Shown here: positions 12,795-19,761 of the stretch, piece after piece | Layout of the letters: each line of letters begins with the position of its first letter | How positions within the stretch are numbered: position 1 is the stretch's first letter | Source: Kocuria sp. p3-SID1428 | Lineage (GTDB): Bacteria; Actinomycetota; Actinomycetes; Actinomycetales; Micrococcaceae | Reading direction: 5' to 3' | NCBI RefSeq assembly: GCF_025149945.1 | Contig: NZ_JALXVH010000046.1 | Location: forward strand, 1 to 19,787 | DNA length: 19,787 nucleotides | Translations under genes and position numbers: made by a program | Notes under the pieces: model-generated | Told to the model about the DNA's origin: nothing | The model's input: only the letters and a program-made list of their open reading frames with translations | Database searches by the model: none

Positions 12795-13724
12795 ATGGAA
12801 CTGCGCCAGCTCACCTACTTCATCGCCGTCGCGGAGGAGCGCCACTTCGGGCGCGCGGCCAAGCGGCTGCACATCGCCCAGCCGCCGCTGTCGCAGCAGA
12901 TCCGCCAGTTCGAGGAGCAGCTGGGCGTCAAGCTCTTCGACCGCACCACCCGCCGCGTGGACCTCACCGCGGCCGGGGCGCTGATGCTCGAGCGCGGGCG
13001 CAGCATCCTCAACGACGTCGAGGCGCTGCAGGCGGACGTCTATCAGGTCGGCCAGGGCGCCACGGGTGTGCTGCACGTGGGCTTCTCCGGGTCCTCGACG
13101 TACAGCGTGATGCCCCGGATCGTGCGCGCGGCCGGCACGGCGTACCCCGGGCTGGCCCTGGATCTGCACGGCGAGATGCTGACCCCGGCCATGGAGCGGG
13201 GGCTGCTCGAGCACACGCTCGACGCCGCGATCCTGCGCCCTCCGGTCTCCAGCCCGGAGATCGACTTCCGCATCATCAACCGCGAGCCGCTCGTGGTAGC
13301 GCTGCCCACGCACAGCCCGCTGGCCTCGGACCGGCCGCTGTCGATGGTCGAGCTGACCGAGCAGCGCTTCGTGACCTACCCGCCGGAGTCCGTGATGTAC
13401 CGGATGACCGCGGACCTGTGCCGCGGGGCCGGATTCCAGCACCGCGTCTCGCAGATGGCCCAGGAGACCTCCACGATCCTGTCCTTCGTGGCCGCAGGCG
13501 GCGGCGTGGCGCTGATGCCCGCCAGCGTGCGCAGCGTCCAGCTGCGCGGCGTGCGCTACCGCGAGCTCGAGGACTCCCCGCACGCGGAGCTGGCGGTCGC
13601 CTGGCGGCGCGAGGACCGCTCGGTGCTGCTGTCCAACTTCATCCAGCTGGTCACCGAGCTGGCCGATGAACCAGAATCCGAGGGCCAGCCGGGTCCCGAC
13701 CCCATCGAAAGGCCTATGCCCTGA
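12795..13724 (+). CDS. catR: LysR-family transcriptional regulator, CatR/BenM-like
   Basis: The 309-residue protein has an N-terminal winged helix-turn-helix (residues 1-60; MELRQLTYFIAVAEE, RLHIAQPPLSQQI, LFDRTTRRVDLTAAG) and a C-terminal LysR effector-binding domain from about 90. The N-terminus resembles the CatR/BenM branch, whose members respond to cis,cis-muconate or benzoate. Its position directly before catB supports a catechol-pathway role. Family members are usually transcribed divergently from their target, but this one lies in the same direction, 9 bases after fadD. Its stop overlaps the catB start as TGATG, so regulator and enzyme are translationally coupled. No clear ribosome binding site precedes the ATG. 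The gene symbol rests on context and N-terminal similarity. Confidence 0.8.
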   Translation: MELRQLTYFIAVAEERHFGRAAKRLHIAQPPLSQQIRQFEEQLGVKLFDRTTRRVDLTAAGALMLERGRSILNDVEALQADVYQVGQGATGVLHVGFSGSSTYSVMPRIVRAAGTAYPGLALDLHGEMLTPAMERGLLEHTLDAAILRPPVSSPEIDFRIINREPLVVALPTHSPLASDRPLSMVELTEQRFVTYPPESVMYRMTADLCRGAGFQHRVSQMAQETSTILSFVAAGGGVALMPASVRSVQLRGVRYRELEDSPHAELAVAWRREDRSVLLSNFIQLVTELADEPESEGQPGPDPIERPMP

Positions 13725-14890
13725 TGCAGATCGCAAAGATCGAGGCGATCCCCTACACGATCCCGTACTCCACCCCTCTGCACTTCGCCTCCGGCGCCGT
13801 CCACGAGGCCAATCACGTGCTGGTGCGCATCGAGACCTCGGACGGGGTCGTCGGCTGGGCGGACACCCCGCCGCGGCCGTACACGTACGGGGAGACGCAG
13901 AAGTCGATCGTGGCCGTGATCGAGGACATCTTCGCCCCGCAGCTGGAGGGGCTCTCGGTCTTCGACCGGGAGAAGGCCCAGGCCGTCATGGCGCGGACGA
14001 TCCACAACGAGACCGCCAAGGGCGCGGTGGACATCGCCCTGTGGGACTGCCTCGGCAAGATCCTGGGCCGACCCGTCACAGAGCTGCTCGGCGGATTCTC
14101 GGATCACATGCGCGTCTCGCACATGCTCGGCTTCAAGCCCGCGCAGGAGCTGCTCGACCTGGCCCTCGAGTTCCGCGAGACCTACGGCATCGACACGTTC
14201 AAGCTCAAGAGCGGCCGCCGCCCGCTGTCGCTGGACGTGGAGGCCGCCCGCGTGCTGCGCGAGGGCCTGGGCGAGGACACCGAGATCTACATGGACTCGA
14301 ACCGCGGCTGGAGCGCCAATGAGGCTGCAGAGGTTCTTCGCCGCACCGCGGATCTCGGGCTGAGCTTCCTGGAGGAGCCGGACGACGCCCGCGAGGTGCT
14401 GGGCCGTCGTCGGCTCGTGGAGAAGTCCGCGATCCCGATCGCCGCCGACGAGTCCGCGCCCAACATGGGCGAGGCCGCGCGCGAGATCCTGACCGGGGGA
14501 GCGAACCTGCTGTGCGTGAAGACCGCGCGCACCGGGTTCACCGAGTCCGCCAAGATCGTGGGTTTCGCCCAGGCGGCCGGCGTGGACGTCTACGTGGGCA
14601 ACCAGATCGACACGCAGATCGGCTCTGTCGCCTCCGTCGTGTTCGGCGCGGCGTTCGAGCACACCCACCGCCGGGCGGGCGAGCTGTCCAACTACCTGGA
14701 CATGGCCGATGACCTCATCGCCAGGCCGCTGACGATCGCCGACGGGAAGATCATGGTCCCCGACGTCCCGGGCGTGGGCACCGAGCCCGATCTGCAGAAG
14801 CTCGCCGCGCACCGCGACCGCTGCGCGAGCGCACCCCGAACTTGGCGTAGATGCGGGTCAGGTGGAACTGCACCGTCTTCTCCGCGATGA
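13724..14890 (+). CDS. catB: Muconate cycloisomerase with a replaced C-terminus
   Basis: CatB lactonises cis,cis-muconate to muconolactone in the catechol ortho-cleavage pathway. Enolase-superfamily active-site residues are complete: the lysine pair K160/K162 in FKLKSG, metal ligands D191 (MDSNRGW), E217 (FLEEP) and D242 (AADES), the opposite lysine K266, and a GEL segment at 319-321. Recognisable family sequence ends near residue 364 (KLAAHR), close to the usual end. The last 23 or so residues, from about 366 to 388, are encoded by the antisense of the neighbouring regulator's DNA-binding helix and have no family similarity. The protein is probably functional, since the loss is at or after its natural terminus. 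GAAAGG at 13707-13712 lies 11 bases before the ATG. No catC follows. Confidence 0.86.
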   Translation: MQIAKIEAIPYTIPYSTPLHFASGAVHEANHVLVRIETSDGVVGWADTPPRPYTYGETQKSIVAVIEDIFAPQLEGLSVFDREKAQAVMARTIHNETAKGAVDIALWDCLGKILGRPVTELLGGFSDHMRVSHMLGFKPAQELLDLALEFRETYGIDTFKLKSGRRPLSLDVEAARVLREGLGEDTEIYMDSNRGWSANEAAEVLRRTADLGLSFLEEPDDAREVLGRRRLVEKSAIPIAADESAPNMGEAAREILTGGANLLCVKTARTGFTESAKIVGFAQAAGVDVYVGNQIDTQIGSVASVVFGAAFEHTHRRAGELSNYLDMADDLIARPLTIADGKIMVPDVPGVGTEPDLQKLAAHRDRCASAPRTWRRCGSGGTAPSSPR

Positions 14891-17642
14891 ACAGCGCTTG
14901 GGCCACCTCCTTGTTGGTCGATCCCCCGGCTACGAGCTGGGCGACGGCCTGCTGCTGGGCGGTCAGCTGCACGGCCTCGGAGCCGATGTGCAGGGCGTCG
15001 GGGCCCTGCCTGCGCAGATCTGAGAGCCCGTCCGTGCCGGTCTGCTGGGCGGCCGGCACGAGGGCGTTGGCCCCGGCGGCCTTCAGCTCCCGGTCGCATC
15101 GGGACACGTAGGTCTGGGCGCCCAGGGAGGCGTAGAGCTCGCGGGCCGAGCGCAGAACTCGCGAGGCCAGCCGCCGCTTGCCGGCCCGCCGCATGCTCTG
15201 CCCGTAGGCGAAGCGCACCCGGGCCTCGAGATAGGGACGGCGCCTCGAGCGCAGCGCGTCCAGCGCCCGGTCGAAGAGCTCCTGGGAGGCTTCGACCTCT
15301 CCGCGCGCGGCCAGCAGCCGCCCCTCCGCCCATGCCATGTGGGCGGCGTCGGCCGGGAAGGACGAGGAGGGGGCGACCGATTTGAGCTCGTCCACGAATC
15401 CCTGGGCCTCGTCGAGCTGATCGGTCATGACCAGCGAGTTCACCAGGGTGTCCTGCCAGGACCAGAACGGCTCGCGGCCGGCAGTGACCGGATCAGCCGT
15501 GCGCAGCGGGCGCAGGGCCTCCAGCGCGGACTCGTAGTCCGCCCGGGCCTCGTGGTAGTGCGCTCGGGCCAGTGCCGCCGGGATCATCATGCTGCGGTAG
15601 CCGCCGGTCGGCACGACCGTCAGGGACAGGAAGTGCTCGGCGCGGTCCCAGTCGCCTCGCATGGCGTTGAGCTCGGCGGCGGTCCAGTACAGCAGAGGCC
15701 GCATCAGGCGTATGCCCGAGGACTCGAGGCGCACGGAGGCATGGGCGATCGTGGCGGCCGCGGCGTCCCAGTCGCCCAGGATCAGCTGGCAGCGCGCCAG
15801 CCAGGACTCGGCCCACAGGGAGATGCACAGCGATCCGCCGCGGTACTCGGTGGGCACAGCCTCCTCGAAGCGCAGGCGGGCCGTCTCCACATCGTCGGTG
15901 CGCAGGGCCAGCCAGGCGCAGCCCATGAGCAGTCGCTGCTCCTGGGCGTTGCCCACTGTCGTGCCCGGATCATCGAGGTACGGCCGCTCGGCCTCGTCCA
16001 GGCGCCGCGAGGCGAACAGCCCCAGGCCGTACATGGCGCAGGCCTCGACGCTGATGTGATGCGGCGCCTCGGCGAGCTCGGCTGCGCGCTCGCCCCAGGT
16101 GACGATGCCCTCGCCGTTCCAGTCGGCCAGGGCGTGCAGCGTGTGCCGCAGGGCGATGCGCGCTCCGGCGCTGGGATCCAGGTCCTCACGCACCGTGCGC
16201 CAGGCCATGGCCAGCTGCGCCGCCGCCGTCGATCGCCGCCCCGTGACGACGGCCAGGTAGCCCAGCACGGAGGCGCGCAGGGGAGACGGCGGCATGGACT
16301 CGATGACGCTGACCAGGCTCGCGGCCTGGGTGATATCGCCGGCGCCGATCAGGGCGTCGACCCCGCGCAGCAGCCGCAGGTCGCCGTCGCGGCGGCCCAG
16401 AGAGAGCCGAGAGGCCGAGAGCATGGCTGAGGCGACCTCCGACCAGCAGCCGTCGGCCGCCTGGCGCTCGGCATAGGCGACCAGCTGCAGGGCCAGCAGT
16501 TCCTGAGGACCGGGAGAGGCCGCGACCAGGTGGCCCAGCCGCGCGCCCTCATCGGCCACGACCTCCGCGGCAGCCCGGTGCAGGGCGAACCGGCGGGTGG
16601 GGGCGATCTGCTCGTAGACGGCGGCGGTCGCGCTGGGCTCCACGAAGTGCACCGCGGAGGGCTGCCGGTCCATGCTCAGGCGAAGCAGCCCGGCGGCGTG
16701 GCCCTCGTCGACGACGGGCAGGAAGTGGGACAGCTGCGCGAGAGCGGCCACCTGCTGCAGAGGCGCGTCCTGCCCCAGCACGGAGACGGCTTCGGCCATG
16801 CGCAGCAGCTCGGGAGAGGCTCGACGCAGCTGGGAGGCCACCCGGGCGCGCGTGCGCCGCGACGGAGGCAGCTTCGGCAGCCAGCCGTGCCATTGCTCCG
16901 CGGGGACCTCCTGGAGCAGCTCGACCACGGACTGCGGGTGGCCCTCGGTGTGGCGCAGCAGCTCGTGGACCGTCGTCATGCTCAGCTCAGCACCCACGAT
17001 CTCGCGGCCCAGGGCGGCGACGGCCTCGGCCTCGAGCGGAGGCAGGTGCAGCACCTCGGTGGGATAGCCGGTCAGATGGTCGATGATCCCGGTCGGCAGC
17101 CCGGCGGCCTGGTCCAGGTCGACGGCGAAGAGGAAGAGCACCCGGCAGCTGTGCAGCCGTCGCGCGGCGAAGATCAGGATGCGCAGCGAGTCCTCGTCGA
17201 GCCACTGCAGGTCGTCGATCACGACGATCACCGGCCCGCGGTGCTGCTGGGCCTCCAGGTGGGTCTGCAGGGTCTGGGCGTAGTTCAGCGCCTGGTCGGG
17301 GGTGAGCCGCTCGACCACCTGCGAGGGCGGCTGCGGGCCGCCGTCGAACCCGGAAGGACTGCGCAGAGGGGCGCTGCCCATCAGCTGGGTGTAGCCGGCC
17401 AGCGGGAGCGCGGACTCCCAATCGCTGCCGCTGGCGGAGAGGACCGTGCGACTGCGGGACGAGGTCTGGGCGAGCAGCTCGCGCAGCAGCCTGGTCTTGC
17501 CGATGCCCACCGGCCCGGAGATCACGGCGGTGCGGGGATGACCGCGGCGCACCTCCTGGTAGAGCCGCAGGAGGTGCTCGAGCTGCGCATCGCGCCCGAC
17601 GAGCGCGACATCGCCGGAGCTTCCGCTGGGAGCGAGGGGCAT
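14751..17642 (-). CDS. benR: LAL/LuxR-family ATP-binding transcriptional regulator, likely BenR, with altered C-terminus
   Basis: The 963-residue protein has an N-terminal STAND/AAA-type ATPase (Walker A GPVGIGKT at 43-50, Walker B VIVVIDDLQWLDEDSL at 138-153), a long helical TPR-like middle, and a LuxR helix-turn-helix at about 893-941 ending in KFGVRSRS. By family knowledge these are ATP- and ligand-controlled activators. Its place directly after benA-benD debris, in the order known for C. glutamicum benABCD-benR, supports BenR. After S941 the normal ELA-type final helix is missing and is replaced by about 22 Arg/Gly/Pro-rich residues read from antisense catB. DNA binding may therefore be weakened or lost. 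The ATG at 17642 follows a TATGAT box; the frame stays open upstream to 18236 only because it runs through the ben remnant. Confidence 0.8.
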   Translation of the reverse strand: MPLAPSGSSGDVALVGRDAQLEHLLRLYQEVRRGHPRTAVISGPVGIGKTRLLRELLAQTSSRSRTVLSASGSDWESALPLAGYTQLMGSAPLRSPSGFDGGPQPPSQVVERLTPDQALNYAQTLQTHLEAQQHRGPVIVVIDDLQWLDEDSLRILIFAARRLHSCRVLFLFAVDLDQAAGLPTGIIDHLTGYPTEVLHLPPLEAEAVAALGREIVGAELSMTTVHELLRHTEGHPQSVVELLQEVPAEQWHGWLPKLPPSRRTRARVASQLRRASPELLRMAEAVSVLGQDAPLQQVAALAQLSHFLPVVDEGHAAGLLRLSMDRQPSAVHFVEPSATAAVYEQIAPTRRFALHRAAAEVVADEGARLGHLVAASPGPQELLALQLVAYAERQAADGCWSEVASAMLSASRLSLGRRDGDLRLLRGVDALIGAGDITQAASLVSVIESMPPSPLRASVLGYLAVVTGRRSTAAAQLAMAWRTVREDLDPSAGARIALRHTLHALADWNGEGIVTWGERAAELAEAPHHISVEACAMYGLGLFASRRLDEAERPYLDDPGTTVGNAQEQRLLMGCAWLALRTDDVETARLRFEEAVPTEYRGGSLCISLWAESWLARCQLILGDWDAAAATIAHASVRLESSGIRLMRPLLYWTAAELNAMRGDWDRAEHFLSLTVVPTGGYRSMMIPAALARAHYHEARADYESALEALRPLRTADPVTAGREPFWSWQDTLVNSLVMTDQLDEAQGFVDELKSVAPSSSFPADAAHMAWAEGRLLAARGEVEASQELFDRALDALRSRRRPYLEARVRFAYGQSMRRAGKRRLASRVLRSARELYASLGAQTYVSRCDRELKAAGANALVPAAQQTGTDGLSDLRRQGPDALHIGSEAVQLTAQQQAVAQLVAGGSTNKEVAQALFIAEKTVQFHLTRIYAKFGVRSRSGRGARRASADRARCPRPGRRGP
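14815..14822. other. Deletion scar joining the 3' ends of catB and benR
   Basis: Recognisable catB sequence on the plus strand stops at about 14815 (codon 364). Recognisable benR sequence on the minus strand ends at 14820 (serine of VRSRS). At most a few bases separate the two homologies. Neither gene has its own stop: the catB frame continues 70 bases into benR antisense, and the benR frame continues 69 bases into catB antisense. This is best explained by a deletion that removed both native ends and whatever lay between. Confidence 0.7.
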
Positions 17643-17654
17643 GGGCCGATCATA
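17643..17654 (-). promoter_or_regulatory. Candidate leaderless promoter of benR
   Basis: TATGAT on the minus strand (complement of 17649-17654) is a near-consensus -10 box, 6 bases before the benR ATG at 17642. No ribosome binding site is visible. It supports independent transcription of benR after the terminator that follows the ben remnant. Confidence 0.65.
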
Positions 17655-17725
17655 GCGATCGCGCCCCAGCGGCCCGGGGCTCGGGCCCGGGAAGGCTCGA
17701 CCACGCGGGATCTGCCCGAGAAGGA

Positions 17726-17759
17726 GGGGCCGGCCGACTTGAGGGAGTCGACCGGCCCC
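17726..17759 (-). terminator. Strong hairpin terminator after the ben remnant
   Basis: The arms at 17726-17739 and 17746-17759 pair over 14 positions with a single mismatch (G-T wobble in RNA of one sense) around a 6-base loop. On the minus strand the hairpin is followed by a pyrimidine-rich CCTCCTTCTC. It lies 20 bases after the benD' stop and 84 bases before the benR promoter, as expected for the terminator of the former ben operon. Confidence 0.7.
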
Positions 17760-17779
17760 GGTGAGCCGTGCCCGAGCGC

Positions 17780-18170
17780 TCAGCCCTGGTCGCCGCCCAC
17801 CGGCAGCACGGAGCAGGTGATGTAGGAGGCCTCGTCGGAGGCCAGGAACACGATCGGGGCGGTCTGCTCCTCGAGCGTGCCGTAGCGCTTCATGTACGAG
17901 GAGTCGACGGTCTGGTCCACGATCGTGCGGTACCAGGCCTCCTCCTGCTCGGTCTCCGGGCCGGGTTCGCGCTGGACGGCACGCGGGGGAGCGAGGGTGC
18001 CGCCGGGAGCCGTGGCCACCACGCGCACGCCGCACCCGGCGACCTCGAAGGCCAGCGCCTTGGTCAGGGCGTTGACGCTCCCCCCTGGCTGCTGCGTACG
18101 GCACGCGGTTCAGCCCGCCGGTGGCCACCGAGGACACGTTGACGATCGTCCCGGAGCCGGGCTCGAGCAT
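17780..18170 (-). pseudogene. benD: Remnant of benD (cis-diol dehydrogenase), C-terminal half with frameshift
   Basis: BenD oxidises the cis-dihydrodiol of benzoate to catechol and belongs to the short-chain dehydrogenase family. Only about the last 130 codons survive. The segment starts at MLEPGSGTIVNVSS and keeps the catalytic Ser region and the YAAA of the YxxxK motif; the Lys position now reads Arg. Just after it, beside a run of six G (plus-strand C6 at 18080-18085), one extra base shifts the frame. The second frame gives VNALTKALAFEVAG and then a well-kept C-terminus (MKRYGTLEEQTAPIVFLASDEASY ending at 17780). The whole N-terminal NAD-binding half is absent. The fragment is fused upstream to benA. 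It cannot make an active enzyme. Confidence 0.85.
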
Positions 18171-18461
18171 GGCCCCGCGGTGCGCGCAGGCGTTGATGAT
18201 GCAGTGCCGCTGCTCGTCCTTGTCGCTGGTGATCACGACGGGGGTGCGGCCGATGTTGGTCGTGTTGTAGTCGCCGACGTTCGGGATCTGCGACTCGTGG
18301 GCCAGGGAGATTCAGTTGCCCTCGAAGATGTACTTCATCTCGAGCTCGAAGACCTCTTCGTCGGTGAAGATCTCGCGCTTGGCGCGGATCACGCCGTTCT
18401 CGTGGTCGTCGATGACGGCGTCGTCGATGACGTCGTGCAGATGGCTCAGGTTCTCAGTCAC
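18165..18461 (-). pseudogene. benA: Remnant of benA (benzoate 1,2-dioxygenase large subunit), N-terminal fragment with stop codon
   Basis: BenA is the Rieske-type oxygenase alpha subunit that dihydroxylates benzoate. The 99 surviving codons begin at a GTG (18461) with an excellent AGGAGG ribosome binding site (complement of 18466-18471) and encode the conserved start MTENLSHLHDVIDDAVIDD. Codon 50 (18312-18314) is TGA where the family has Trp in the EGNWIYLAHE segment; the next conserved Tyr reads Ser. The fragment reaches the first Rieske ligand pair (C92, H94 in CAHRGAML) and stops. The second Cys/His pair and the whole catalytic domain are gone. The homology switches to benD at the shared ATG-CTC (complement of 18165-18170). 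benB and benC are absent. Confidence 0.87.
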
Positions 18462-18588
18462 GGCTCCTCCTGGAGTGTCGACCGGACCGCCCCGGAGGTC
18501 TCCTCGGGCGGGCGCGCCGCTCGTGCCTTCCGCGGTGCGATCTGTGGAAAGTGCGGCGTGCATCGATGATGTACCAAGTCCGGGGCCC

Positions 18589-18604
18589 GGTGACGGCGGT
18601 CACA
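18589..18604. promoter_or_regulatory. CRP/GlxR-like operator
   Basis: GGTGACGGCGGTCACA matches the CRP/GlxR consensus TGTGA-N6-TCACA with one mismatch (GGTGA for TGTGA) and correct spacing. The core GTGAC-N4-GTCAC is a perfect palindrome. By established knowledge, GlxR (cAMP-CRP family) controls aromatic degradation genes in C. glutamicum, so carbon-source control of the ben/cat region is plausible. No binding has been shown here. Confidence 0.5.
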
Positions 18605-18677
18605 CCAGGGGAATGCCTAGTGGGGGGCAAGGGGTTCGAATGTGTTGATTCAAGAAGAGAAACGACACAATTGATAT

Positions 18678-18707
18678 TTGTGATGTGAGCAATGAGCGAC
18701 TTAGTCT
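18678..18707 (+). promoter_or_regulatory. Candidate catA promoter
   Basis: TTGTGA at 18678-18683 and TAGTCT at 18702-18707 are separated by 18 bases and could serve as -35 and -10 boxes, giving a start near 18714 and a leader of about 180 bases. The -35 box overlaps the left arm of an inverted repeat, so a regulator bound there would act directly on RNA polymerase. Other weak boxes exist nearby. Confidence 0.35.
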
Positions 18708-18727
18708 TGGCTGTATCGCACATCACA
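18679..18727. repeat. 9-bp inverted repeat flanking the candidate catA promoter
   Basis: TGTGATGTG at 18679-18687 and CACATCACA at 18719-18727 are exact reverse complements, with centres 40 bases apart (about four helical turns). The arms bracket the candidate -10 box. This is a plausible paired operator for BenR or the LysR regulator. A shorter CACAA/TTGTG pair (18666-18670 and 18678-18682) overlaps the left arm. Confidence 0.5.
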
Positions 18728-18891
18728 TGCGCGGGCGAATCCCTCGTCCCGGCAGGATGTCCGCAGGCCCTCCGGGCCCGTGGACTGGGGCGCCGCGGCT
18801 GACAGCCGGCGGCGGGGACGGCTCCGCATCGACGCGGCGCAGCCATGGGCGGTGTGCTCGCGTCGGCAATCTGAACTACGTGGAGGTCGAC

Positions 18892-19761
18892 ATGACTGAT
18901 ACCCGCAAGGAGAACGAGGGCACCGCCGTCGAGGCCGGCTCGCTCGCCACCCAGCGCTTCGCCGAGTCCGGCAAGCTCTCCGGCCTGAATGTCCCGGTCG
19001 AGCGCGTCAACGCGATCGCCTCGGACCTGGTCGACGCCCTGAACGAGATCGCCGTGAAGCACAGCGCCACGTACGAGGAGTTCAACGCGTTCAAGTCCTG
19101 GCTCATCAAGGTCGGCTCGGACGGCGAGTGGCCGCTGTTCCTCGACGTGTGGCTCGAGCACACCATCGAGGACATCAACTCCCAGGACCGTCCGGGCGTC
19201 GTCGGCACGATCGAGGGCCCGTACTACGTTCCGAATGCCCCGCAGATGCAGACCCCGGCCACGCTGGAGATGCGCGAGGACGAGGAGGGCACCCCCATCG
19301 TCTTCCAGGGCGACTTCACCGACACCGCGGGCAACCCGATCAAGGATGCGACCGTCGAGATCTGGCATGCCGATGCCCAGGGCTTCTACTCGCAGTACGC
19401 CCCGGAGCTGCCCAAGTGGCTGTTCCGCGGCACTGTGGCCGCCGATGAGAACGGCCACTTCGAGATCCACACCAAGCGTCCGGCGCCGTACCAGATCCCC
19501 ACCGACGGCGCCTGCGGCCAGCTGATCGCAGCCGCCGGCTGGCACGCCTGGCGCCCGGCCCACATCCACATCAAGGTCCACGCTCCGGGCTACCAGCTGG
19601 TCACCCAGCAGCTGTACTTCCCGGGAGATGTCCACAATGAGGACGACATTGCCGGCGCGGTGAAGCCCGAGCTGATGCTGGATCCGCAGGACAACCCGGA
19701 CGCCCCGGGTGAGATGGCCACCTACAACTACGTCCTGGCCCGCGAGGGCGAGACCAAGTGA
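18892..19761 (+). CDS. catA: Catechol 1,2-dioxygenase (intradiol)
   Basis: CatA cleaves catechol between its hydroxyls to cis,cis-muconate with non-haem Fe(III). The 289-residue protein has the N-terminal helical dimerisation domain (about 1-100) and the intradiol catalytic domain. The four iron ligands are recognisable as Y166 (GFYS), Y200 (APYQIP), H224 and H226 (RPAHIHI). TIEGPYYVPNAP at about 106-117 is the usual entry to the catalytic domain. GGAGGT at 18882-18887 sits 4 bases before the ATG at 18892, which fixes the start. The length is normal, and no damage is visible. It was originally the divergent neighbour of benA and is now the only intact gene on this side of the ben scar. Its product should be the substrate of the CatB encoded about 4 kb away. 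Confidence 0.95.
   Translation: MTDTRKENEGTAVEAGSLATQRFAESGKLSGLNVPVERVNAIASDLVDALNEIAVKHSATYEEFNAFKSWLIKVGSDGEWPLFLDVWLEHTIEDINSQDRPGVVGTIEGPYYVPNAPQMQTPATLEMREDEEGTPIVFQGDFTDTAGNPIKDATVEIWHADAQGFYSQYAPELPKWLFRGTVAADENGHFEIHTKRPAPYQIPTDGACGQLIAAAGWHAWRPAHIHIKVHAPGYQLVTQQLYFPGDVHNEDDIAGAVKPELMLDPQDNPDAPGEMATYNYVLAREGETK

Follow-up and report, generated by a model that had tools for sequence, protein, structure and literature searches.

The question raised by this locus is what became of the benzoate dioxygenase operon that lies beside the catechol genes of Kocuria sp. p3-SID1428. The stretch analysed, here called the window, is 19,787 nucleotides long, and an earlier interpretation made from its letters alone (the sequence-only reading) had proposed that the start of benA is fused to the end of benD. 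We compared the window with the intact locus of G001, the nearest relative compared, which has 24% of sampled 31-letter words in common with the window and is 92-95% identical to it over the aligned DNA. The CatA protein of the window is 98% identical to that of G001 and 90% to that of K. palustris (G027), and by these similarities the window appears to come from a member of the K. palustris group of Kocuria that is close to G001 and probably another species. In G001 (locus L121), catA lies on the opposite strand to benA (463 aa), benB (171 aa), benC (533 aa), benD (301 aa) and the gene of a 957-aa LuxR-type regulator; catB and a LysR-type regulator gene follow, again on the opposite strand, and catC is found not at this locus but elsewhere. 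In BenC of G001 (L121 4746-6347, 533 aa) we also observed, after the reductase domains, a match to the FCD domain (Pfam PF07729, residues 381-502, 1.3e-14), which occurs in GntR-type regulators. The window is collinear with G001 over the ben-cat part except for two deletions. Its catA, catB and catR are open and encode proteins 98-99% identical to those of G001, with changes that are mostly synonymous. The features around the first deletion are as follows.

18892..19761, plus strand: catA, catechol 1,2-dioxygenase, open; 420.5 bits to TIGR02438 (cut-off 404.4) for a query lacking codons 1 and 2.
18462..18891, no strand: divergent promoter region separating the benA remnant from catA; G001 has the same base at 351 of 408 aligned positions, with 29 gap columns.
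18165..18461, minus strand: benA remnant, codons 1-99 of 463 (G001 numbering), GTG start, 91% identity, one stop, TIGR03229 match.
18312..18314, minus strand: codon 50 of the benA remnant, a TGA stop where both G001 and K. palustris G027 have TGG.
18166..18172, minus strand: deletion joint CCATGCT, 7 bp common to benA and benD of G001; 4,032 bp missing relative to G001.
17780..18170, minus strand: benD remnant, comprising codons 172-301 of 301 and ending in a stop codon at 17780-17782.
18080..18085, minus strand: C6/G6 run with a net +1 indel, a frameshift in the benD remnant by alignment to G001.

Read on the minus strand from 18461, the translation runs VTENLSHLHDVIDDAV...EGN*ISLAHES...CAHRGAML and then directly into BenD sequence, EPGSGTIVNVSSVATGG...PYAAARG. 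Codons 1-49 and codons 51-99 of the first part, searched separately, both have TIGR03229 BenA as their best match (1.7e-11 and 8.3e-18). The best model is NF009463 for 18081-18170 (7.2e-11) and NF040811 BenD for 17783-18082 (1.6e-45), a second part that reads in another frame up to the stop. The benA'-'benD fusion is thus borne out by its separate pieces and by the intact relative, and the alignments confirm the other lesions that had been proposed: a TGG-to-TGA change at codon 50, a +1 indel beside a G6 run, and loss of the rest of benA, of benB and benC and of the start of benD. Neither remnant still belongs to its family. The two benA pieces score 43.6 and 64.5 bits against a TIGR03229 cut-off of 780.95 (BenA of G001 scores 817.2), and no complete Rieske and catalytic domain with a BenB partner is present, the Pfam Rieske model being matched over positions 5-50 of 88 only; benA codons after 99 and benB are absent from the window. 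The benD remnant falls outside NF040811 because codons 1-171 are gone and the frame is shifted. It also has a 3-bp deletion near its end relative to G001 and a missense change to Arg at the Lys of the YAAAK motif, a residue which we take to be catalytic in short-chain dehydrogenases.

The 4,032 bp missing from the window comprise benA codons 100-463, benB, benC and benD codons 1-171. In G001 the heptamer CCATGCT is present at both ends of this segment (L121 2826 and 6858), and the window has a single copy. A short-homology joint had been suggested at ATG-CTC (18165-18170), encoding Met-Leu in both families. The homology is real and the codons, ATG CTG in benA and ATG CTC in benD of G001, do specify Met-Leu in both; the exact common run is instead CCATGCT at 18166-18172. 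Common sequence of at least 7 bp was found in 0.12% (0.0012) of 400,000 random benA-benD joints. Exact repeats are thus found at both ends in the intact relative, for this deletion (7 bp) as for the second one described below (5 bp), and, judging from the joints alone, the segment may have been lost between the repeats by replication slippage or microhomology end joining. A short exact repeat at the joint and an indel beside a homopolymer would also be expected if the two arms of an intact operon had been joined wrongly in assembly and the stop and indel were sequencing errors. We consider such an artefact very unlikely, since the start codon is changed as well (GTG, compared with ATG in G001), missense changes are found at sites common to G001 and K. 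palustris and scattered over both arms, and another deletion lies 3.3 kb away.

Since 4,032 is 3 x 1,344, benA codon 99 is joined in frame to benD codon 172, and an AGGAGG lies upstream of the start codon. Both features would suit a stub that is still functional, either as a short peptide or as an in-frame BenA-BenD chimera under selection. We give this explanation almost no credence: translation meets TGA at codon 50, the frame is lost again about 30 codons into the benD part, the Rieske domain is only partial and there is no sign of purifying selection (see below). A nonsense codon in common with K. palustris was considered and rejected, as the TGA flagged in benA of G027 is the natural end of the gene. 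We note separately that an open frame of 1,161 codons (14751-18236, minus strand) runs from the benA remnant after its stop, through the benD remnant (out of frame past the indel), into the regulator, and gene callers may report it as a false fusion protein. No sister protein with the same fusion was found at 1e-8 using residues 1-130 of this frame as query against proteins of 0.55-1.75 times its length.

To assess constraint, changes were assigned to branches by comparing the window and G001 with G027 as outgroup, leaving out codons where all three differ (six in the ben remnants). On the window branch the ben remnants have 13 nonsynonymous and 4 synonymous changes, compared with 8 and 17 in catA, catB and catR together (Fisher p=0.011) and with 1 and 7 in the same ben codons on the G001 branch (Fisher p=0.0072). 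Among the 13 are the changed start, the TGA at codon 50 and two codons adjoining the frameshift; on the G001 branch, one of the synonymous changes is at codon 99, which straddles the joint. In strict counts without these the comparisons become 9:4 versus 8:17 (p=0.042) and 9:4 versus 1:6 (p=0.057), an excess that is only marginal and in that respect compatible with the artefact discussed above. The nonsynonymous rate of the remnants on the window branch is 0.025 per site (95% interval 0.013-0.043), or 0.017 (0.008-0.033) by the strict count, and the synonymous rate of catA, catB and catR is 0.024 (0.014-0.038). Set against each other, and with wide intervals, these rates indicate relaxed constraint over much, perhaps all, of the window branch after it split from G001. 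With its clear homology, disabling lesions and loss of constraint, the remnant reads as a true pseudogene that has been decaying for much of that branch. The sequence-only reading had called the decay recent on account of a strong ribosome binding site and well-conserved residues. This does not follow from either, given the rates above; the decay is recent only in the sense that the window branch is short.

The damage is larger than had been described, in that the adjacent LuxR-type regulator is truncated too.

14819..14823, no strand: second deletion joint CAGCG, a 5-bp repeat; 107 bp missing relative to G001.
14751..17642, minus strand: LuxR-type ATP-binding regulator (AAA_16 and GerE), 963 aa, with foreign residues in place of its C-terminal end.
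13724..14890, plus strand: catB of the muconate cycloisomerase family; it has lost its stop and carries a foreign tail of 22 residues (388 aa compared with 366).
12795..13724, plus strand: LysR-family regulator, open, called catR from its position.

In G001 the 107 bp contain the last codons of the regulator, with the end of its DNA-binding domain, a 15-bp hairpin and part of the catB stop, which is lost because the first base (plus strand) of its complement is deleted. The hairpin, which lies between the regulator and catB, is gone as well (in G001 a 66-base stretch with -49.2 kcal/mol and z -4.88). Common sequence of at least 5 bp was found in 0.97% (0.0097) of random joints for this deletion. 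The regulator tail RSELAAVYAREGVGSTDG of G001 is replaced by RSGRGARRASADR... in the window, where the GerE match covers profile positions 2-51 of 57. Over the regulator as a whole, the window branch (18 nonsynonymous, 22 synonymous) did not differ significantly from the G001 branch (10 and 23; p=0.23). A protein from a cluster of 104 members (P0001, source label lgn) is 97% identical to the window's regulator, compared with 94% for that of G001, and has an intact end. As P0001 is the closer of the two, the 107-bp deletion has probably not become fixed across the group. From its position, the LuxR-type regulator would be an activator of ben.

We therefore regard it as very probable that the window holds a benABCD operon in decay, from a Kocuria near K. 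palustris, and that the decay came about through a short-repeat deletion plus further lesions. At the locus, the coding sequences of BenABC and BenD are either missing or disrupted and the regulator is truncated. The first deletion took out the remainder of the BenA oxygenase subunit, all of BenB and the BenC reductase, and BenD's N-terminal part; the nonsense codon, +1 frameshift and missense changes are present as well and constraint is relaxed, and a second short-repeat deletion cut the adjacent regulator. Benzoate oxidation by the ben route is presumably lost to the cell, which may have kept catechol ortho-cleavage for other sources of catechol.

Across 27 Kocuria genomes, catA was found in 16 (E<=1e-60), catB in the same 16, BenA in 15 (E<=1e-80) and BenB in 14 (1e-20). 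Every one of the 15 has a single BenA match at that threshold, which makes a spare benABC in the window's genome unlikely, and benzoate oxidation has presumably been lost genome-wide. At the locus, benA to benD are each in one piece with no internal stop in 12 of the 16 genomes with catA (for G018, G022 and G024 the loci were taken from named records). Stops flagged in benC of G004 and G016 are at the gene end. G003 (79% complete), with benD in three frames, was classed as undecided and, in the comparison with Arthrobacter-type loci below, counted as undamaged. Two side observations concern the regulator, which has three nonsense codons in G019 (K. subflava, name inferred; L137 4047-6824) beside a whole benABCD and aligns in two pieces in G016.

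The ben operon is broken in three of the 16, namely two K. marina genomes (G011 = SO9-6 and G014 = KCTC 9943, names inferred) and G020. In G011, the BenA reading frame stays open to about residue 455 and then passes, still in frame, into the final ~20 residues of the LuxR-type regulator; benB, benC, benD and most of the regulator are missing, and catA and catB are kept. G014 has the same joint and two more deletions inside benA, of 425 and 173 bp, the 173-bp one on a 7-bp repeat and the first without a common run by the same alignment. In G020, a deletion of ~2.1 kb has taken benA and catA codons 1-135. The catA left beside benB (L133, 8881-9342) is cut to residues 136-289, and as there is no other catA match at 1e-60 in G020, ring cleavage by CatA is probably lost there too. 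A metagenome protein from one contig of a G001-like species (P0006, 923 aa, source label ena) joins BenA at residue ~277 to the regulator at residue ~237; by Pfam domains it is the only one to join BenA and a LuxR-type protein among 33 proteins of about 508-1615 aa listed for its BenA part. It starts at codon 76, where the frame of the window also restarts behind its stop, so its upstream part may be broken as well. By their differing ends, the window, K. marina and G020 represent at least three separate collapses of ben, and P0006 is probably a fourth. The joins from benA to a downstream gene (window, K. marina, P0006) are all in frame and might keep the downstream regulator translated; P0006 could be found only because its frame is open.

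These repeated collapses within the genus, together with two deletions in one strain of which one alters catB, would fit selection for the loss, with benzoate oxidation harmful after impairment of the regulator or of a downstream step (for example the tailed catB) and the ben deletions acting as suppressors. This would be a cause of the operon's decay and not an alternative to it. Blocked beta-ketoadipate intermediates are toxic in Acinetobacter; no report of such toxicity was found among the matches listed in a literature search. Against such selection, CatB has 2 nonsynonymous and 6 synonymous changes on the window branch, with its core complete ahead of the tail, and drift would be enough where benzoate is scarce. 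Selection for the loss is thus possible, and we consider it unlikely. For Kocuria as a whole, recurrent and perhaps selective deletion of the benzoate-oxidising arm beside a conserved catechol arm is a suggestion we make only tentatively, with more doubt than confidence.

Catabolic operons are known to be lost through short-repeat deletions. Among the matches listed in a literature search, no collapse of the ben operon in Kocuria was found in titles or abstract openings. In the passages concerned, a comparative study from 2025 (PMC12343579) describes the degradation of phenolic acids as universal in Kocuria and records benABCD in four of five new isolates, with the ben operon absent from M4R5S9T; the relevant part of PMC5624760 merely lists benABCD and a pseudogene count. 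What is new here is the second deletion, at the regulator and catB, and the finding that ben is also broken in K. marina, G020 and P0006. We see this as ordinary gene loss, whose worth lies in repeated collapses with different ends and which merits a short comparative note and not a claim of discovery. The window is a clear case of a catabolic pathway that has been cut back at its upper end, with the peripheral funnel lost and the adjoining catechol genes open, and the varied collapses within one genus offer a natural series for the question of drift versus selection. They also caution that catA or a benA fragment is no proof of benzoate use.

Arthrobacter-type loci provide a wider comparison. 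By tblastn coverage, benA to benD are full-length in 28 of 29 (L055-L083); at L063 benC and the regulator are split in two, as is the regulator at L082. Damage in 4 of 17 Kocuria genomes (window included) versus 1 of 29 Arthrobacter-type loci is not significant (p=0.055), nor is 3 of 16 versus 1 of 29 when counted as events (p=0.12). The loci were chosen by catA similarity and left out L041-L054 (Kocuria; L048 and L054 are extra catA copies with no ben beside them) and 37 more distant loci (L084-L120), most of which have no complete ben set by identity thresholds and some of which have BenA only in part (L102, L105, L108). The Kocuria and Arthrobacter-type loci have the same gene content as the window, benABCD, a LuxR-type regulator, catB and a divergent catA; the window differs from them in its collapsed operon and truncated regulator. 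P0006, known from the protein alone, resembles the window in that BenA is joined in frame to a gene further down its operon, and differs from it in the ends. K. marina likewise shares with the window an in-frame deletion from benA into a downstream gene with catA and catB kept, and as its joint has different ends (BenA at about codon 455 to the regulator tail), the two arose as separate events.
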